Shown here: positions 28,377-36,543 of the stretch, in pieces | Layout of the letters: each line of letters starts with the position of its first letter | How positions within the stretch are numbered: the stretch's first letter is position 1 | From: Amycolatopsis sp. NBC_01488 | GTDB taxonomy: Bacteria; Actinomycetota; Actinomycetes; Mycobacteriales; Pseudonocardiaceae | Assembly: GCF_036227105.1 (NCBI RefSeq) | Contig: NZ_CP109434.1 | Location: forward strand, 6,978,501 to 7,042,500 | DNA: 64,000 bases | Reading direction: 5' to 3' | Notes under the pieces: generated by a model | What the model was told of the DNA's origin: nothing | The model's input: the letters and a program-made list of their open reading frames with translations, nothing else | Databases searched by the model: none | Program-made: the position numbers and the translations under genes

Positions 28377-29420
28377 ATGAAGGCGCTGGTTTACCACGGT
28401 CCGGGTGCGAAGGCTTGGGAAGACGTCCCGGACGCCGCCGTCCAGGAGCCGACCGACGTGGTCGTGCGCGTCGACACCACCACGATCTGCGGCACCGACC
28501 TGCACATCCTGCAGGGCGATGTCGCCGCGGTCACCGACGGCCGGATCCTCGGCCACGAAGCGGTCGGCACGGTGACCGCGGTCGGGGACGCGGTCCGGGC
28601 GTTCGCGGCGGGGGAACGGGTGCTCGTCCCGGCCATCACCCAGTGCGGGCGGTGCGAGTACTGCGGGCGCGGGATGCCGTCGCACTGCCAGACGGTCGGC
28701 GGGATCGGCTGGATCTTCGGCCACCTCATCGACGGCACCCAGGCCGAACTGGTGCGCGTACCGTTCGCGGACACGTCGCTGCACGCGGTCCCGGACGGCG
28801 TCACGAACGAGCAGGCGATCTTCCTGGCCGACTCCTTGCCGACCGGGTACGAGGTCGGCGTCCTGGCCGGCCGCGTCCGCCCCGGCGACACGGTGGCGGT
28901 GGTCGGCGCCGGCGCGGTCGGGCTCGCGGCGATCCTGACCACGGGCCTGTGGGGCGCGTCGAAGGTGATCGCGGTGGACTCCAACAAGTTCCGCCTGGAG
29001 AAGGCCCTGGAGTTCGGCGCGACGGACGCGTTCGAAGCGGGCCCCGACACCCGCTCGGACGTCCTCGGCCTGACCGACGGCCTCGGCGTGGACGTCGCGA
29101 TCGAAGCGGTCGGCTACCCCGAGACCCTGCGGACGGCGGCGTCGCTGGTCCGCCCCGGCGGCCGCATCGCGAACATCGGCGTGCACGGCGTGCCGGTCGA
29201 GCTGCCGATGCAGGAGATGTGGATCCAGAACCTGACGCTGACGATGGGCCTGGTGGACACGGTCTCGATCCCGACCCTGCTGAAGATGGTCGCGTCCGGC
29301 CGCATCCCGGCCGAGCGCATGGGCACCCACCGGTTCACGTTCGCGCAGCTGGAGGAGGCGTACGACGTCTTCGCCAACGCGGCCGCGAACTCGGCGCTGA
29401 AAGTGGTCATCACGCCTTAG
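28377..29420 (+). CDS. Zinc-dependent alcohol dehydrogenase (MDR family)
   Basis: A 347-residue medium-chain dehydrogenase. It has the catalytic zinc ligands in CGTDLH and GHEAVG, the structural-zinc cysteine cluster CGRCEYCGRGMPSHC, and Rossmann motif GAGAVGL. The closest look is to the NAD-dependent alcohol dehydrogenases of the type found in Ralstonia and actinobacteria. ATG 28377 is chosen because GGAGG lies five bases before it; an in-frame ATG 12 bases earlier lacks a site. It stops within the last codons of the convergent SEFIR gene. Confidence 0.87.
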   Translation: MKALVYHGPGAKAWEDVPDAAVQEPTDVVVRVDTTTICGTDLHILQGDVAAVTDGRILGHEAVGTVTAVGDAVRAFAAGERVLVPAITQCGRCEYCGRGMPSHCQTVGGIGWIFGHLIDGTQAELVRVPFADTSLHAVPDGVTNEQAIFLADSLPTGYEVGVLAGRVRPGDTVAVVGAGAVGLAAILTTGLWGASKVIAVDSNKFRLEKALEFGATDAFEAGPDTRSDVLGLTDGLGVDVAIEAVGYPETLRTAASLVRPGGRIANIGVHGVPVELPMQEMWIQNLTLTMGLVDTVSIPTLLKMVASGRIPAERMGTHRFTFAQLEEAYDVFANAAANSALKVVITP

Positions 29421-30388
29421 GTGACGGTCGGATCCCCGAGCCCGAGCTCGGGCGGGCGCCCCCGCCGGTTGACGACGACGGCCGCGGACCTTACGGGCGA
29501 GGCGGAAACCCCGGGGCGTGACATCTCGAGCCGCAGCACGCGGGCGCCGGTGACGTCGAGGTCGATCGTCGCCGGCTTCCCGACCGCGACGGCGTGCTCG
29601 GACCGGGGCTTACCGTCGAGCAGCACGCGGAAGTGGCCGACTTGGAAGGGATCCCGGGCATCGTCGAGCACCCCGGCGACGGTGGTGAACCGCTGGTAGT
29701 GACCGCCGAGGTCCAGTTCGACGAAGCCCGGCCCGGTGGCGGTGGGCGTGGTGGGCCGCAGGACGATGCTGTGTTCGTACCGCACGTCGTCGATCGACGC
29801 CGCGCCGCGGCGCACCCCTTGGCTGGCGCACGTCCACGGCAGCTCGGCGGCGAGCACCGGCCGCGGTTCCCGTGCACCGCCGAGCCAGACCCCGCGGCGG
29901 GGCATCGGATACTGTCCCTGTCCGGTGATCGCGGCGAGGAGATCGGCGACGCCGGCCTCGGTGAACTCGCCGACGTGGTACCTGGCCGTCGAATGCGCAT
30001 TGAGGAACGCCGGGATCTCGTCGATCGAGCGGCCGGGCAGGACGACGGGGAGGACCCGTTCAGTTTCGCGGCGCAGGTCCCGGGTCAGGTTGTCGCGGAT
30101 GATCGCGGCTTCGAACTGGGAACCCCGGCCCTCGTGGGGCATCGCCGTGCCGTCAGCACGGCGTTTGTACTCGGCAGAAGCGATGACCAGGATGAAGTCC
30201 GCTTCGCTCAAGTGCTGGGTGGCCCACAGGGACCAGTCACGACGGACGTTGTCGTACCACGAGTCGAGGTGCACGTCCAAGCCGATGACGCCGCGCAGGA
30301 ACGTCGCGAACTTTTCCACTTGAGCCTTGTGTTCGGGCGTGTCGTGCGCGTAGGTGACGAACACCCGGGGTACCTCGCGGTCGGACAT
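29417..30388 (-). CDS. SEFIR (TIR-like) domain protein with C-terminal NPCBM-like domain
   Basis: A 323-residue protein. Residues about 7-150 form a SEFIR/TIR-like fold: RVFVTYAHD, then WSLWATQHL, the FILVIASAEY strand and an RGSQFEAAI helix. Residues about 195-310 look like an NPCBM/NEW2 carbohydrate-binding-type beta-sandwich (SIVLRP, GFVELDLGGHYQRF, FRVLLDGK). SEFIR domains mediate signalling in eukaryotes, and bacterial examples occur in anti-phage and conflict genes. ATG 30388 has GAGGAG eight bases upstream. It is divergent from the TIR-ATPase operon across a 205-base region and may be a fifth component or a separate effector (inference). Confidence 0.78.
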   Translation of the reverse strand: MSDREVPRVFVTYAHDTPEHKAQVEKFATFLRGVIGLDVHLDSWYDNVRRDWSLWATQHLSEADFILVIASAEYKRRADGTAMPHEGRGSQFEAAIIRDNLTRDLRRETERVLPVVLPGRSIDEIPAFLNAHSTARYHVGEFTEAGVADLLAAITGQGQYPMPRRGVWLGGAREPRPVLAAELPWTCASQGVRRGAASIDDVRYEHSIVLRPTTPTATGPGFVELDLGGHYQRFTTVAGVLDDARDPFQVGHFRVLLDGKPRSEHAVAVGKPATIDLDVTGARVLRLEMSRPGVSASPVRSAAVVVNRRGRPPELGLGDPTVT

Positions 30389-30593
30389 CGGTCGCTCCTC
30401 GGGATCGGTCGGTGATTCACCGATCCGGGAGATCGGTATTCCGGAAACACTACGCGTGTGTAGCCGTGGCTTCTGTATTTGTCAAGGTGTCATTCGCGCC
30501 GTAACTTCGGGCGTGGCCAGTTATTGTCCTGTATCTGTCAGGTTTCCCACCTTCTACGTTGACGTCAAGCGGATCTAGGATGACATCCGCCTG
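30389..30593. promoter_or_regulatory. Divergent regulatory region of the TIR/SEFIR system
   Basis: AT-richer than its surroundings. A 15-bp palindrome TCGGTGATTCACCGA lies at 30409-30423, just upstream of the SEFIR gene. Direct repeats CTGTATTTGTCAAGGT (30473-30488) and CTGTATCTGTCAGGT (30529-30543) are 56 bp apart. A rightward promoter TTGTCA (30479-30484), 17 bases, TAACTT (30502-30507) overlaps the first direct repeat, as expected for a repressor site. Function is inferred from symmetry and spacing only. Confidence 0.5.
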
Positions 30594-30623
30594 GTGGGGA
30601 GCGGTGAAGGAGCGTCGGCACGC

Positions 30624-31196
30624 GTGTACGAGTTTGACGTGTTCATCAGCTACCGGCGCACCGCGAGCGACATAACGGAATGGATTCGCCACCATTTCCA
30701 TCCACGTCTGTCGGAAGTGCTCGACAACAACCGCTACGAGGACGCGAAGATTTTCTTCGACGACCGGATGCGCACCGGGTCGAGCTGGCCGGGGGAACTG
30801 CGGTCGGTGCTGCAGCACTCCCGTGTGCTGGTTCCGGTCTGCTCCCCGAAATACTTCCGGGACGAACTGTGCCTGGCCGAGTGGTATTCGATGGCGGAGC
30901 GGGAGGCGCTCGGCACCGGGCCCCGGCGGCAGCTGATCTACCCGGTGATCTTCTGCGACTCCAAGAACTTTCCCGGCTGGGCGCACGAGCGGCGCATGCG
31001 CGACCTGCAGGAGTGGAACCACCCCTTCGAGCACTTCCAGACCGCGCCCGCCTACCTCGACTTCAACCAGGAGATCAAGCGGATCGCCGGGGAACTGGAG
31101 GACCTCATCGAACGGGCGCCCGAGTGGCGCGACGACTGGCCGGTGCGGACGCCGGCCCCCGAACCGCCGAAGCGGGCGCGGATGCCGAGGTTCTGA
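30624..31196 (+). CDS. TIR domain protein, first gene of a putative conflict system
   Basis: A 190-residue protein that is essentially one TIR domain: the first strand YEFDVFISYRR, then FFDDRMRTGSSW (the BB-loop region), SRVLVPVCSPKY, and ELCLAEWYSM, in which Glu86 occupies the position of the catalytic glutamate of TIR NADases. Prokaryotic TIRs commonly cleave NAD+ or make cyclic ADP-ribose signals during infection. GTG 30624 places the first strand at the N-terminus; GTG 30594 is an alternative start. It is followed after three bases by the KGGVGR ATPase gene, so the operon is tight. Whether it is enzyme or adaptor cannot be read directly. Confidence 0.88.
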   Translation: MYEFDVFISYRRTASDITEWIRHHFHPRLSEVLDNNRYEDAKIFFDDRMRTGSSWPGELRSVLQHSRVLVPVCSPKYFRDELCLAEWYSMAEREALGTGPRRQLIYPVIFCDSKNFPGWAHERRMRDLQEWNHPFEHFQTAPAYLDFNQEIKRIAGELEDLIERAPEWRDDWPVRTPAPEPPKRARMPRF

Positions 31197-31199
31197 CGG

Positions 31200-32837
31200 A
31201 TGCCGGGATCGGTCTTCACCTTCTACTCCTACAAGGGCGGAGTCGGCCGGAGCTTCACCCTGGCCAACGTCGCAGTGCTGCTGGCTCGCTGGGGGCACCG
31301 GGTGCTCTGCCTGGACTGGGATCTCGAAGCCCCCGGCCTCGGCGACTACTTCCGGCCGCGACTGCCGGCGAAGCCCGCCGGGGGTGTGGTGGACCTCGTC
31401 GACGACTTCCGCTGTGGCCGGTTCGCGCCGGAGGCCCACGTCATGCGGCTGAAGGACGTCGGCGAACTCGACTTCGTCGCCGCGGGTACCGAGGAATCCG
31501 GTTACGTCGGACAGGTGCAGGAGATCGACTGGGCGGCCCTGTACGACGACGGGTTCGGCGAGTACCTCGAGCGGTGCCGTGAGCAATGGTCCGCCGAGTA
31601 CGACTTCGTGCTCATCGACAGCCGCACCGGGATCTCCGACATCGGCGGGATCTGCACCGCGCACCTGCCGGACCACCTCGTCGTCCTGTTCACGGCGAAC
31701 CGGCAGAGCATCCGCGGCGCGATGGACCTGGCCAGGCGCGCCGACACCGCGCGCAACCTCCTGCCGTTCGACCGTTCGCGGCTGACCGTCCTGCCCGTGC
31801 TGTCGCGGTTCGACAACCGTGAGGAGTACGACCGCTCTGAAACCTGGAGAGGCATCGTCGTGGACGAGACGGCCGAGCTGTACCGCCCGTGGCTCGACCA
31901 GTCGGTGACCGCGGAGACGATGTCGCGCCACCTCACCCTGCCGTACGTGTCCTACTGGAGTTTCGGCGAGCAGCTGCCGGTGCTGTCGGAGAAGACACCG
32001 AGCGCCGACCAGATCGGGTTCGCGCTCGAAACGGTCGCGGCGGTGATCGCCTGCCGCCTGGACCGCACCGACCTGCTGGCCGAGAACCGCGACGCCTACG
32101 TGGCGGCGGTGCGGGCGAGCAGGCAGGAGTTCAAGCACGACCTGCGGGTCAGCATCCCGCGGTCGTCCGTCGGCACGGCGAACAAGCTGGTCGCCGAGTT
32201 GGAGAAGCTCGACGTCCGCGTGGTGAAGTCGTTGTCGGGCGATCGCTCCCTGCTCGTGCGGGCCGAAGACGACGCTCGGCACCTGTGCCTGCTCGTCGAC
32301 GGCAAGGTGAGCCGCTGGCAGTCCGCCGAGGTCGAGCTGTTCCTGCACCGCACCCTCGGCCAAGACCGCCGCGTGATCCCGATCCTGACAGCGGGCACCG
32401 AGGCGGCGTCCCTGCCGGGCTACGTCGGCAACCTCCGCTACCTGCGCCTCGGCGGTTCGCGCGGTCCGGCGGAAGTGGCCCGCGATCTCATCGGCCAGCT
32501 CAAGGGCTTCACCTCCCTCGTCGACGCGGGCGACGACGTCGACCTCGCGGCGGTGCTCACCCGGGCGCGCGGGTCCCGGCTACGCCCGTCCCGGTGGGAC
32601 CTGGTGGACGAGCTGGTCACCGCCCTGCAGGCAGCCGCTGCCGCGGGCGACGGCGCCCGCACGAGAGAGCTGGCAGCGGACCTCGCGGTGGCGACGAAAC
32701 CCCTCACCCCGAACGGCGACGGCCACCACCCGGCCCCGATCCCGACCCGCCAGTCGATCGACTGGCTCTTGCGGACCCTCGACGCCCGCGTGCAGACCAC
32801 GACGCAGCAGCCGAACCACCGGAAGGATCACGGATGA
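31200..32837 (+). CDS. KGGVGR-motif variant ParA/MinD-like ATPase with C-terminal TIR-like domain
   Basis: A 545-residue protein. Residues 1-270 are a deviant-Walker (SIMIBI) ATPase with YSYKGGVGRS at 9-18, LDWDLEAPG and LIDSRTGISDIGG. The P-loop lysine is replaced by Arg17 while the signature Lys12 is kept, which defines the KGGVGR variants. Residues about 325-440 look like a TIR-like domain (VKSLSGDRSLLV, SRWQSAEVELFLH, RRVIPIL), and the C-terminus is a disordered Pro/Gln tail. KGGVGR ATPases recur next to TIR and effector genes in actinobacteria. It overlaps the next gene by four bases. A regulatory switch for the operon is the likely role (inference). Confidence 0.85.
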   Translation: MPGSVFTFYSYKGGVGRSFTLANVAVLLARWGHRVLCLDWDLEAPGLGDYFRPRLPAKPAGGVVDLVDDFRCGRFAPEAHVMRLKDVGELDFVAAGTEESGYVGQVQEIDWAALYDDGFGEYLERCREQWSAEYDFVLIDSRTGISDIGGICTAHLPDHLVVLFTANRQSIRGAMDLARRADTARNLLPFDRSRLTVLPVLSRFDNREEYDRSETWRGIVVDETAELYRPWLDQSVTAETMSRHLTLPYVSYWSFGEQLPVLSEKTPSADQIGFALETVAAVIACRLDRTDLLAENRDAYVAAVRASRQEFKHDLRVSIPRSSVGTANKLVAELEKLDVRVVKSLSGDRSLLVRAEDDARHLCLLVDGKVSRWQSAEVELFLHRTLGQDRRVIPILTAGTEAASLPGYVGNLRYLRLGGSRGPAEVARDLIGQLKGFTSLVDAGDDVDLAAVLTRARGSRLRPSRWDLVDELVTALQAAAAAGDGARTRELAADLAVATKPLTPNGDGHHPAPIPTRQSIDWLLRTLDARVQTTTQQPNHRKDHG

Positions 32838-33451
32838 CCGACCGCCTGCCACACAAGGAAACCGCGGCAATGCTGACGCTGCTGGCGCTGGGCCGGGCGA
32901 TACCCAACCCCGAGCTGGAGACGCTGGCGGGTTTCACGCTCACCGGCAAAGAACGCCGGCACCTCAAGGACATCGGATACATCACCAGCGAAAAGGTCGG
33001 TCGCCCCTTCGTGCACGAGCTCACCGCGAGTGGCTGGGTCTGGTGCCTGAAAGAGCTCGAAGAGCAGACCCCGCCGCCGCCTCGTGCGCAAAGCTCCCTC
33101 TGCTCCGCACTCTACGTCTTCGCCGGCGGTATCGGCGAAAGCCTCGAGCGCCGCGATCTCCGGTTCGCGGACATCTTCCCCTGTCCGGGTGGCACCATCG
33201 AGGACCGCATCCGCATCGCCTACCGGGAGCTGGTGACGGAACCCCGTGGTTGGGTCGGGCTGGTGGACCTGCGGCCGAAGCTCGGCGCGACCACCGAAGA
33301 GGTCGACGCTGCGCTGAAGGAGCTGAGCCGCGCCGGCAAGGTGCACCTGGTGCCCGAAGAGAACCGCAAGGCTCTCACCGACGCCGATCACGAGGCGGCG
33401 ATCCGCATCGGCGGCGAAGACAACCATCTGCTCTCGATCGAGGCATCGTGA
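32834..33451 (+). CDS. Winged-helix protein of the TIR-ATPase operon
   Basis: A 205-residue protein with no enzyme motif. Two segments look like winged helices: residues about 8-75 (a helical N-terminus followed by GKERRHLKDIGYITSE) and about 130-195 (IRIAYRELV, GWVGLVDLRPKLG, VDAALKELSRAGKVHLVPE). wHTH proteins of this kind occur in multi-gene bacterial conflict systems, where they may bind DNA or bridge effector and ATPase. ATG overlaps both neighbours by one to four bases. I assign no precise function. Confidence 0.7.
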   Translation: MTDRLPHKETAAMLTLLALGRAIPNPELETLAGFTLTGKERRHLKDIGYITSEKVGRPFVHELTASGWVWCLKELEEQTPPPPRAQSSLCSALYVFAGGIGESLERRDLRFADIFPCPGGTIEDRIRIAYRELVTEPRGWVGLVDLRPKLGATTEEVDAALKELSRAGKVHLVPEENRKALTDADHEAAIRIGGEDNHLLSIEAS

Positions 33452-36400
33452 TGGACGAGCTGACCGCACTGGCGACGCTGCGATTCGACTGGGCGGACAC
33501 GCCGGACCACGTTTGGCGGGACTCGCCCTATCATGTCGACGGGCTGCACGCCGACGCCCTCGCCGCACTCGACACGGGCATCCGCGACGCCTCGGCCAGC
33601 GAGGGACCGAGCCCGATCGGGCTCGTGCTCCGCGGGCTGAAGGGCGTCGGCAAAACCCACCTCCTCGGTCTGGTCCGGCGGCACGTGCACCGGGCGCGGG
33701 GGTACTTCTTCCTCGACGACGTCACCGCGGCCGAGGCGTTCTGGGACAACACGGCCGAGGCACTGCGCCGTGGCTTCCTTCGGCTGGACGATTCGAGACA
33801 GTCACAGCTCAAGAGCTTCCTCCTGCGCGTGTGCCTGCGGGCTCAAGTCAGCGCCGAAGTCACCGACGCGATCCGTCGTGGACGCGGGCTGACCGTCGAC
33901 CACGTCGAGGCATTCGTCGATGGCGTACACCGCCTGGACACGGTGGTCGGTGGCCAATGCGAGGATACGGCGCGAGCTCTGGTACTCATCGCGAGCCGGG
34001 ACCGGGGCGCCAAGTACATCGGCGAAGACTATCTCGACGGGGACGAAGACCTCACCCCTGAGGCTCAGCGGTGGAACATCTATTCCCGGCCGAAACGGGC
34101 GCGCGTGCTCGTGGAGGAAATCACCCAGCTGCTCGCTCTTACGGGTCCGGTCGTGATCGCCGTGGACCAGCTCGACACCCTCGTCGCGCGGTCGATGAAG
34201 CGGACCCAGGAGATCGGCGACAGCACCGAGGAAGACCTGCTCGTCGCAGAGATCGCCGATGGGCTCATGGGGCTGCGGGAAGTCACCCGCAAGACCCTCA
34301 CCGTGCTGGCCTGCCTGCCCAGCACCTGGGACCAGATCAAGTCGAAGGCAGCAGGCACCGTTCCCGACCGGTTCCGCGAGTCGGTGACTCTCGGGCGGAT
34401 CCTCGACGCGGAGCTCGGCCGGGCGCTGGTCGCGAAGCGACTCGGTGTCGCCTACCAGAACATGGGCTTCACCCCGCCGCATCCGACCTGGCCCGTCGCT
34501 CCCGCGGCGTTCGACGAGCCGTGGGAACAGTGGACCCCGCGACAGATGCTCAAAATCATCGGCGCGCACATCGACGTGTGCCTGCGCACCGGACAGGTCA
34601 GCGAGCTCACTTCCTTCGACGAAAAGGTCTCGGTGCCGGTCACGCCCGTGCGGACCGTGGTGGCGGACGACCGGTTCGCCGAACTCGACGCCGAGTTCGG
34701 GAAGCTGAAGGCGGAAGCCGATCCGGAGAAGCTGCTCGCCGAGAAGACCGTGGACAAGGTGATGCCGGATCTCCTGTCGGCCGCTCTGCGCTGCTGGGTC
34801 ACCGAGGTCGGCGACGACGACATGGAATGGTCGTGCGAACGCCAGAACGAGCGAAGCGAGGTGCACGCATGGCTGAGCCGGACGCTCGACGAGACCGCAG
34901 ACCTCCAGGAGCACTGGGTCTTCCGGGCGATCGCGGCCCGGGATCCCCGTGCCGCGCTGAGCCGGTTCCGCAAGGCCAGGTCTGCGGCCGGGCAGCGGCA
35001 AGGAGTGGACAACCGGCATCTCGTCATCCTTCGGGACGTCTGGGGACGCGGGGCCAAGACGCGCGAAGAGGTCGAGAAGTTCACCGACGCCGGCGGCAAG
35101 ACGATCCCGCCCACCACAACCGATGTGCGGACCTTCTGGGCGTTGGAGAGGATGCTCGGCACCGGCGGCCGTGAGCTGCACGAGTGGCTGATCGACCGGC
35201 GGCCCGCGAGCCGGTCGGACCTGCTGTCCGCCGTGCTGCCGGAGAAGCCGTCGGGGCAGCCCGCCGAAGGGACGCACCCGCCGCCGGCGGAGATGGCGCC
35301 GCCCGCTGAAGGCGAGATCACGCTCGGCTCCGTCGTCGGCTCGGGGGAGCCGGTGCGCGTTGAGCTTTCCGCGCTGCGCAAGCACGCCGCCGTCTTCGCG
35401 GGGTCCGGTTCGGGGAAGACCGTGCTGCTCAGGCGGATCGTGGAGGAGTGCGCTCTGCTGGGGGTCTCCGCGATCGTCCTGGACCCGAACAACGACCTCG
35501 CGCGGCTCGGCGACGCCTGGCCCACGCCGCCCGATGGCTGGGGGCCCGACGACGCCCAGCTCGCCAAGCGGTACCTGGCCGAGACCGACGTCGTCGTCTG
35601 GACGCCGGGACGGGCGACCGGGCGGCCGCTGGCCTTCCAGCCGCTGCCGGACTTCGCCGGCGTCCTCGACGACTCCGACGAGTTCGGGGCGGCCGTCGAG
35701 GTGGCGGTGGCGACGCTCGCGCCGCAGGCCCGGCTCACCGGGACGACGGCGAAGACCAACATCGGCCTGGCGGTGCTGCGCCAGGCGGTCGTCCGGCACG
35801 CGCGGACCGGGTCGCGCAGCCTGCCCGAGCTGATCGAGCTGCTGACCGACCTGCCCGGGGACGTCAGCAACCTCAACGACGCCCCGCGCATTGCGGCCGG
35901 CCTCGCCGAGATCCTGAAGGCGGCGATGGTCAACGACCCGCTGTTCGCGGGCGGCGGCGAACCGGTCGACCCGGGCGCGCTGCTGACCCCGGCGTCCGGC
36001 AAGCGGGCGCGGGTCTCGGTGATCAGCTTCGTGGGCCTGCAGGCGGAGGAGCAGCGGCAGAACTTCGTCAACCAGCTGCAGATGGAGCTGTTCGCGTGGA
36101 TCAAGCGCAACCCGGCGGGCGACCGGCCGCTGGGCGCGTTGTTCGTGATGGACGAGGCACAGACGATGGCGTCGTCGGGCAGCCTGACGGCGAGTACGCG
36201 CAGCACGATCGTCCTCGCGTCGCAGGCCCGCAAATACGGCCTGGGCCTGCTGTTCGCGACCCAGGCGCCCAAAGGACTGCACAACCAGGTGGTCGGCAAC
36301 GCGATGACGCAGTTCTTCGGCCGCCTGAACAGCCCGGCCCAGATCGCGGCGGCCAACGAGCTGGCGCGGGCGAAGGGGAGTCCGGTCGCGGACATCTCGC

Positions 36401-36543
36401 GGTTGGAGCGGGCCCAGTTCTACGTGGCGGGGGAGGCGTTCGGCTTCCGCCAGGTGGCGACGCCGCTGTGCCTGACCCACCACCCGGCGAGTCCGCTGCG
36501 GCTGGAGGAGGTGATCAGCCGGGCACGCGGCGAGGAGGTGTAG
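33451..36543 (+). CDS. Double P-loop ATPase: N-terminal AAA/STAND-like, C-terminal HerA-FtsK-like
   Basis: A 1030-residue protein with two NTPase modules. The first has Walker A GLKGVGKTH (Lys68) and Walker B VIAVDQLD (Asp239). A helical middle region (about 400-620) follows. The second has AGSGSGKTVLL (Lys656), LDPNNDLARLGD, and Walker B LFVMDEAQT (Asp901-Glu902), followed by FATQAPKGL and QFFGRLNSP, the signature of HerA/VirD4-type DNA translocases. HerA ATPases pair with nucleases, SIR2 or TIR effectors in several anti-phage systems. Here the HerA-like module is fused to a second ATPase and linked to TIR genes. ATG 33451 overlaps the upstream stop. It ends the operon. Confidence 0.87.
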   Translation: MDELTALATLRFDWADTPDHVWRDSPYHVDGLHADALAALDTGIRDASASEGPSPIGLVLRGLKGVGKTHLLGLVRRHVHRARGYFFLDDVTAAEAFWDNTAEALRRGFLRLDDSRQSQLKSFLLRVCLRAQVSAEVTDAIRRGRGLTVDHVEAFVDGVHRLDTVVGGQCEDTARALVLIASRDRGAKYIGEDYLDGDEDLTPEAQRWNIYSRPKRARVLVEEITQLLALTGPVVIAVDQLDTLVARSMKRTQEIGDSTEEDLLVAEIADGLMGLREVTRKTLTVLACLPSTWDQIKSKAAGTVPDRFRESVTLGRILDAELGRALVAKRLGVAYQNMGFTPPHPTWPVAPAAFDEPWEQWTPRQMLKIIGAHIDVCLRTGQVSELTSFDEKVSVPVTPVRTVVADDRFAELDAEFGKLKAEADPEKLLAEKTVDKVMPDLLSAALRCWVTEVGDDDMEWSCERQNERSEVHAWLSRTLDETADLQEHWVFRAIAARDPRAALSRFRKARSAAGQRQGVDNRHLVILRDVWGRGAKTREEVEKFTDAGGKTIPPTTTDVRTFWALERMLGTGGRELHEWLIDRRPASRSDLLSAVLPEKPSGQPAEGTHPPPAEMAPPAEGEITLGSVVGSGEPVRVELSALRKHAAVFAGSGSGKTVLLRRIVEECALLGVSAIVLDPNNDLARLGDAWPTPPDGWGPDDAQLAKRYLAETDVVVWTPGRATGRPLAFQPLPDFAGVLDDSDEFGAAVEVAVATLAPQARLTGTTAKTNIGLAVLRQAVVRHARTGSRSLPELIELLTDLPGDVSNLNDAPRIAAGLAEILKAAMVNDPLFAGGGEPVDPGALLTPASGKRARVSVISFVGLQAEEQRQNFVNQLQMELFAWIKRNPAGDRPLGALFVMDEAQTMASSGSLTASTRSTIVLASQARKYGLGLLFATQAPKGLHNQVVGNAMTQFFGRLNSPAQIAAANELARAKGSPVADISRLERAQFYVAGEAFGFRQVATPLCLTHHPASPLRLEEVISRARGEEV

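Follow-up and report, generated by a model that had tools for sequence, protein, structure and literature searches.

We read a four-gene operon in Amycolatopsis sp. NBC_01488, with moderate confidence, as one version, set apart by its effector, of a modular conflict system of actinobacteria, probably anti-phage or anti-plasmid, that would be gated by a DNA translocase and would here use TIR as its effector. The genes encode, in order, a TIR protein, a KGGVGR ATPase, a probable winged helix-turn-helix (wHTH) protein and an AAA-HerA double ATPase. They occupy positions 30624-36543 on the plus strand of the window, the 64,000-nucleotide stretch of contig NZ_CP109434.1 (positions 6,978,501 to 7,042,500) that was analysed, and a gene for a SEFIR-NPCBM protein diverges from them. 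The host, a soil actinobacterium other than Streptomyces, carries the locus on a replicon that is a 9.5-Mb single-contig genome, and the closest named homologues of the HerA protein are from Amycolatopsis. An initial annotation of this DNA had proposed these genes as a conflict system with a TIR signalling relay. All five are present where it had placed them, and runs of the five proteins against Pfam, PADLOC and NCBIfam confirmed SEFIR, NPCBM, TIR_2, AAA_KGGVGR, CATASP, AAA and DUF87 (HerA) domains by curated Pfam and NCBIfam models, the wHTH excepted. While the observation itself holds, its interpretation is partly supported, and the unit is more modular than had been claimed.

A near-invariant core pair with alternative partners

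Neighbourhoods of up to about 19-21 kb were read around HerA relatives from 200 family genomes, from named loci (the best 80 of 572 relatives, among which close relatives are over-represented) and from 20 loci chosen from a class search. The resulting 169 loci include repeated genomes and come to 143 after removal of identical cores; L102 and L103 are HerA remnants, L102 lying outside the count. A wHTH gene adjoins the HerA gene in 168 of the 169 loci (142/143 when non-identical), the sole exception being a HerA remnant.

The wHTH and HerA genes are a near-invariant unit, and TIR+KGGVGR is one among alternative partner cassettes. This cassette accompanies the core in 70 of the 143 loci. Elsewhere the partner is a protein with a C-terminal DUF559 (27/143), DUF4365 (PDC-M02A) together with PDC-M02B (18/143), a divergent WD40-repeat protein whose N-terminus looks protease-like by eye, mostly with a Trypco1 gene (9/143), a downstream AIPR/AbiU protein (5/143) or, at a single locus (1/143), SEFIR as the only partner. 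These labels come from profiles built from the same loci, with Pfam and PADLOC applied to representatives (DUF559 n=2, Trypco1 n=1, WD40 n=1, DUF4365 n=1, AIPR n=2, PDC-M02B n=3, AbiU n=2), and the TIR+KGGVGR type was scored by its KGGVGR gene. A TIR gene is called beside KGGVGR in 69/70 such loci, and the remaining one, in L053, was recovered by a search of open reading frames.

The co-conservation of four genes proposed in the initial annotation stands in so far as they are kept as an operon, whereas the part that stays constant is the wHTH-HerA pair. In the 143 non-identical loci, junction gaps of no more than 30 bp, overlaps included, were found at TIR-KGGVGR in 69/69, at KGGVGR-wHTH in 52/70 and at wHTH-HerA in 140/142. 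PADLOC matches (AbiU 2e-114, PDC-M02A 2.6e-60 and PDC-M02B 9.8e-87 for the alternative partners) place several of the partners among known or candidate defence proteins, namely AbiU, PDC-M02A/B, PDC-M28B and bSEFIR. The DUF559 partner looks like an active nuclease, because residues D267, E278, D280 and H284 are kept in 16/16 aligned sequences.

In Lentzea sp. NEAU-D7, a pPIWI_RE gene (L179:5571-8168; 1.1e-187) lies directly upstream of a wHTH-HerA-AIPR version. In eight Micromonosporaceae loci (L153, L158, L160, L165, L166, L170, L178 and L183), a divergent protein of about 1300-1370 aa adjoins wHTH-HerA; its N-terminus is protease-like by eye, Pfam finds WD40 in it in L178, and a small Trypco1-type gene accompanies it in 6/8 loci.

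Phylogeny of the core and its two TIR subclades

In a HerA tree of 140 proteins, all 70 TIR+KGGVGR loci, together with L049, which has kept SEFIR only, form one clade. A mixture-model tree of 64 rows, which leaves out the five long-branched rows L086, L216, L218, L219 and L220, again recovers the TIR clade with support of 100/100 and places it among the DUF4365 versions. The simplest reading is one swap of a DUF4365 cassette for TIR+KGGVGR, followed by one loss (L049); the direction of replacement is not proven, since the root was not inferred.

The SEFIR gene, which the initial annotation had listed as divergent from the operon, is no general part of the unit and is confined to one of two TIR subclades. 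There it is divergent in 33 loci, including L040 and L047, in which an extra gene has moved it out of scoring range and it is visible in the neighbourhood reading. In the other subclade, 32 loci have a downstream gene with weak resemblance to TIR (TIR_2 E 0.0022 in L066). No locus has both genes and five have neither, one of these at a contig end. Because the pattern follows the two subclades, it does not constitute an independent test of exclusion.

Components of the operon

The TIR protein (190 aa; 30624..31196, plus strand; TIR_2 48.1 bits) contains a catalytic-type Glu86 in a Cys83-x-x-Glu86 motif, and Glu86 is kept in 43/43 family-set loci. Its profile aligns with plant TIR proteins, the best being L6 (E 1.3e-07), and ThcB4, a Thoeris III model, is matched by 13/24 TIR homologues at E<=0.001, the best at 1.6e-07. 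All 24 homologues match FxsC_Nterm; against the FxsC model NF040588 the window TIR scores 63.7 bits, below the curated cut-off of 130. With its catalytic glutamate, the protein fits a predicted TIR NADase.

The KGGVGR ATPase (545 aa; 31200..32837, plus strand) comprises a ParA/MinD fold at about residues 1-294, a TIR-like tail at about 313-434 and CATASP at 449-528. It scores 154.4 bits against NF047398 (KGGVGR ATPase; curated cut-off 90) and matches PADLOC PDC-M28B at 1.9e-27. The structure comparison (VIA list), which covered residues 1-294 with the tail outside, finds it ParA/MinD-like, and the Foldseek list for this protein also includes CTP synthases. The KGGVGR motif is kept in 44/44 family-set loci. 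A ParA-type P-loop reads KGGxGK. Since the KGGVGR loop has Arg where the ParA type has Lys, it appears deviant and points to a protein that binds nucleotide but hydrolyses it slowly or not at all. MinD/ParA-like domains of conflict systems are termed inactive in the accessible part of PMC7159879. The term KGGVGR itself appears in a single paper of the open literature searched, an unrelated one.

The TIR-like tail of this protein (32136..32501, plus strand) had been named in the initial annotation and is delimited here from model secondary structure, alignments and a weak TIR_2 match. In its favour are that sub-threshold TIR_2 match (E 0.016), which reaches E<=0.001 in 7/36 members of the tail family, and a strand-helix order predicted from the model that fits TIR; a profile comparison, taken up below, is not significant. 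Tail residues W373, Q374 and E377 align by eye with W82, C83 and E86 of homologous TIRs, the window TIR having L82, and E377 is kept in 42/44 loci.

Nine KGGVGR genes exceed the family cut-off in 20 genomes (the host and 19 relatives), and eight of the nine are in the operon; these eight comprise six of the seven neighbourhoods read, the window's own gene and that of G124. The KGGVGR gene at L255:5804-8992 is outside a HerA operon and is flanked, by eye, by a 150-aa possibly HEPN-like protein and a P-loop ATPase; this unit is a candidate PDC-M28-type system.

The small protein that follows (205 aa; 32834..33451, plus strand) is probably a wHTH protein in its N-terminal half, with a second, similar half. 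We base this on the pattern seen by eye in an alignment of 21 homologues, which agrees with the earlier label; it is our own reading and not a database result, for no Pfam, PADLOC or NCBIfam model matched. Calmodulins, which were the best matches of its profile in the PDB (E 0.0035), are implausible and were dismissed as an effect of composition.

The double ATPase (1030 aa; 33451..36543, plus strand) combines an N-terminal AAA domain, a middle domain and a C-terminal HerA motor. The AAA domain has a Walker A K68 and the motif D239-Q240-x-D242, and the motor has a Walker A K656, D901-E902 and Q938. In family-set loci K68 is kept in 67/69, K656 in 68/69, and both D901-E902 and Q938 in 69/69. 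A structure search, with the N-terminal AAA outside its scope, finds the HerA motor fold close to DndH-C. The AAA domain draws generic AAA_22/AAA_16 matches alone in Pfam, and its profile has no PDB match at E<=0.05.

For the middle domain (about residues 410-600; 34678..35250, plus strand), DSSP applied to the model predicts the order helix-strand-strand-strand-helix-strand, with the strands at 434-527, and then helices. This strand order would resemble a restriction-endonuclease (REase) core, in which by eye no REase catalytic motif is seen. The domain has no plausible PDB match (a designed protein at E 0.003), and against Pfam it shows scattered weak matches, HTH_32 in 4/27. Its candidate identity as an inactive REase is without sequence support and is retained as a conjecture from the model.

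Distribution and genomic context

The wHTH-HerA core is patchy and accessory, and it is no universal housekeeping locus; on this point the initial annotation is borne out. A HerA relative of at least 300 bits occurs in 61/200 family genomes (the host genome and one partial match included), and the HerA core is found in 32/296 genomes of a class sample and 6/396 of a phylum sample, the host genome being counted in both.

A collection of 72,556 plasmid records contains a relative in three of them. In Tsukamurella tyrosinosolvens, a DUF559-hypothetical-DUF87 (HerA) version lies in the plasmid-labelled record NZ_LR134464.1 (L268:4272-9240), inside a cluster of ribosomal protein genes between rplN and rpsQ; on one side it is bordered by PIN and VapB-type antitoxin genes. 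On pMaq22A_1p, an alphaproteobacterial plasmid from Methylobacterium aquaticum (L267), a sequence related to the HerA part (49% over residues 634-1022) lies at a place with no annotated gene.

The ADH and DHFR-like genes that flank the window locus were traced in 20 genomes, and no clean empty site was found among them. Synteny with the window is seen in G856, for both neighbours, and in G854, for the DHFR-like neighbour and, further out, window genes at 19-21 kb; five DHFR-like genes located elsewhere (L262-L266) differ in their remaining neighbours. The divergent accessory gene (29417..30388, minus strand) encodes the 323-aa SEFIR-NPCBM protein (Pfam SEFIR 55.7 bits, NPCBM 36.9 bits; PADLOC bSEFIR 4.2e-27). 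The 235-bp intergenic region between it and the TIR gene (30389..30623) contains a 15-bp inverted repeat, TCGGTGATTCACCGA, near the SEFIR start on its upstream side. An inverted repeat of CGGTGA with a 1-bp spacer is present in 9/33 SEFIR-TIR intergenic regions, and with those nine alone an operator was set aside as a candidate.

Competing explanations and proposed mechanism

Several observations weigh against a conflict system of this kind. An anti-phage function is something we infer for the operon from sequence analysis alone. The identities of the wHTH protein and of the middle domain are unproven, and that of the TIR-like tail is weakly supported, its comparison with TIR by hhalign being not significant (probability 2.3%). 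A recognized partner is absent at 13/143 loci. The initial annotation had suggested looking for enrichment in defence islands, and the flanks of 16 loci show none: PADLOC matches around them are not above those at random places (33 versus 48 families at E<=1e-15), where the counts are of PADLOC families rather than genes with a match, in 110/116 flanking genes (the six from L100 were excluded as near-copies of those in L101) and in 117 control genes from 15/16 random places (L273 gave none). By eye, sugar-transport and metabolic genes surround the window copy. In the second TIR subclade, genes for the TIR-like protein, an XRE-HTH protein and a BTAD-NB-ARC-TPR regulator recur downstream across genera (Pfam assignments from L066 only), and such stable neighbours, which look like stable inheritance, could reflect a developmental or regulatory role. 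It is because of the missing PADLOC excess, the metabolic flanks, the stable subclade neighbourhood, the partnerless loci and the reliance on sequence analysis that our confidence goes no higher than moderate.

The operon might instead consist of two adjacent systems, a wHTH+HerA module and, upstream, a separate FxsC/PDC-M28-like signalling pair of TIR and KGGVGR with SEFIR. The FxsC_Nterm matches of the TIR homologues (24/24, the window's own below cut-off), the PDC-M28B match of the KGGVGR protein, the KGGVGR gene without HerA at L255 and the occurrence of wHTH+HerA without TIR+KGGVGR all fit such a division. We consider it improbable, however, given that 8/9 KGGVGR genes over cut-off in the 20 genomes are in the operon, that the junctions are tight (KGGVGR-wHTH gaps of no more than 30 bp in 52/70) and that the clade shows a single loss (L049). 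The patchy presence, the TIR catalytic-type Glu kept in 43/43 and the finding of nuclease and Abi-type proteins as exchanged partners likewise argue against a housekeeping-like or developmental regulator in which TIR would serve as a scaffold and which would act in sporulation, chromosome segregation or the regulation of antibiotics. We give this explanation little credence, even though the KGGVGR protein is ParA/MinD-like, HerA/FtsK motors are able to segregate DNA, one subclade has conserved regulators as neighbours and no defence-island signal is seen. True membership of the Orc/CDC6-HerA/FtsK capture systems, with TIR replacing the active nuclease, overlaps our favoured reading and adds common descent. 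It seems to us rather unlikely: the five proteins give no REase match, and the AAA class and the middle domain are unconfirmed.

For the favoured reading, a translocase-gated conflict system, what is observed is which parts there are, how they are conserved and that they co-occur; every step of a mechanism is one that we infer, partly by analogy with SIR2-HerA. The HerA motor would form a ring on invading DNA, positioned by the wHTH protein and the N-terminal AAA domain, and its engagement with or pumping of DNA would switch the KGGVGR protein, which via its TIR-like tail would cluster and activate the TIR protein. Activated TIR may then break down NAD+ or convert it to a signal, leading to a growth stop; a relay ending in NAD+ depletion, as the initial annotation had suggested, is possible. 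The divergent SEFIR protein, or the other TIR-like protein in the sister clade, could provide a second arm or act as a regulator. In the nuclease variants, the same wHTH-HerA core would bring DNA to the nuclease.

More tentatively, and short of calling it probable, we propose that wHTH and AAA-HerA may be an actinobacterial immune chassis that reads foreign DNA and drives swappable cassettes of Vsr-like DUF559, DUF4365 or AIPR nucleases or of TIR; where the cassette is TIR, a ParA-like switch crippled in hydrolysis would use its own TIR-like tail to seed TIR assembly. We know of no earlier HerA-gated TIR system. If this proposal is true, the operon would be the first known one, in which one and the same motor had, a single time, exchanged a nuclease arm for one that consumes NAD, and TIR signalling would be tied to a DNA pump. 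The effector exchange would then be a natural experiment in which motor sensing is separable from effector action, through the comparison of nuclease-like and TIR lineages, and KGGVGR ATPases would gain a function.

Comparison with known systems

No named system with the TIR+KGGVGR+wHTH+HerA set was found in PADLOC, NCBIfam, Pfam or the open literature, a weak negative whose scope takes in neither bioRxiv preprints nor the bulk of subscription papers; nor was a TIR+KGGVGR cassette on a HerA-type core found in the open literature searched. Thoeris places a ThsA-type effector next to TIR, and the five window proteins have no SIR2, Macro or SLOG match in Pfam or PADLOC. MADS comprises a methyltransferase and other mad genes besides mad8; here mad8 alone is matched (1.2e-15), with no methyltransferase match in the five proteins. 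SIR2-HerA (Nezha) and HerA-DUF4297 differ in that no SIR2 or DUF4297 Pfam match occurs in the five proteins, HerA is here fused to an N-terminal AAA and a middle domain, and there are extra wHTH-like and KGGVGR proteins.

The KGGVGR protein matches the M28B component of PADLOC PDC-M28 alone, and the alternative partners in related loci match PDC-M02A/B and AbiU; these comparisons concern component models rather than the full gene sets of PDC-M28 and PDC-M02, and the window HerA and wHTH proteins match no PDC-M02, PDC-M28 or AbiU model. FxSxx-COOH systems with FxsC (NF040588) have a TIR of the same broad family and, according to the part of PMC7159879 available, MinD/ParA-like domains; unlike them, the five proteins show no radical-SAM match, and the window TIR is below the FxsC cut-off. 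With VMAP-type NTP-dependent conflict systems (PMC7159879) and CATRA systems (PMC8195603), as far as the accessible text describes them, the operon has MinD/ParA-like ATPases, TIR and CATASP in common, whereas it has no vWA, MoxR or caspase match in Pfam.

The nearest published class is that of the HerA/FtsK capture systems, alongside the BREX-related capture systems described in PMC12839542. In the accessible part of PMC10853773, neighbourhoods of the HerA/FtsK class usually contain HerA/FtsK, an Orc/CDC6 ATPase, an inactive REase, an active REase and wHTH; TIR is named in that part as an Orc/CDC6 fusion only, in neighbourhoods described independently of HerA. The claim that no characterized system has exactly this gene set stands in the searches above, but this class already couples HerA, an AAA+ ATPase, wHTH and effectors. 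Here, the effector is TIR+KGGVGR instead of a restriction nuclease, an active REase having no Pfam match among the five proteins while DUF559 and DUF4365 proteins occur in related variants, and a generic AAA and an REase-like strand order are present in which Orc/CDC6 and inactive-REase identities are unconfirmed. Because of the missing active REase and these two unconfirmed domains, we do not file the locus as a member of the class. With the HerA/FtsK motor domain present in the operon, and an AAA+ ATPase, a probable wHTH protein and an effector coupled with it, it works like a HerA/FtsK capture system.

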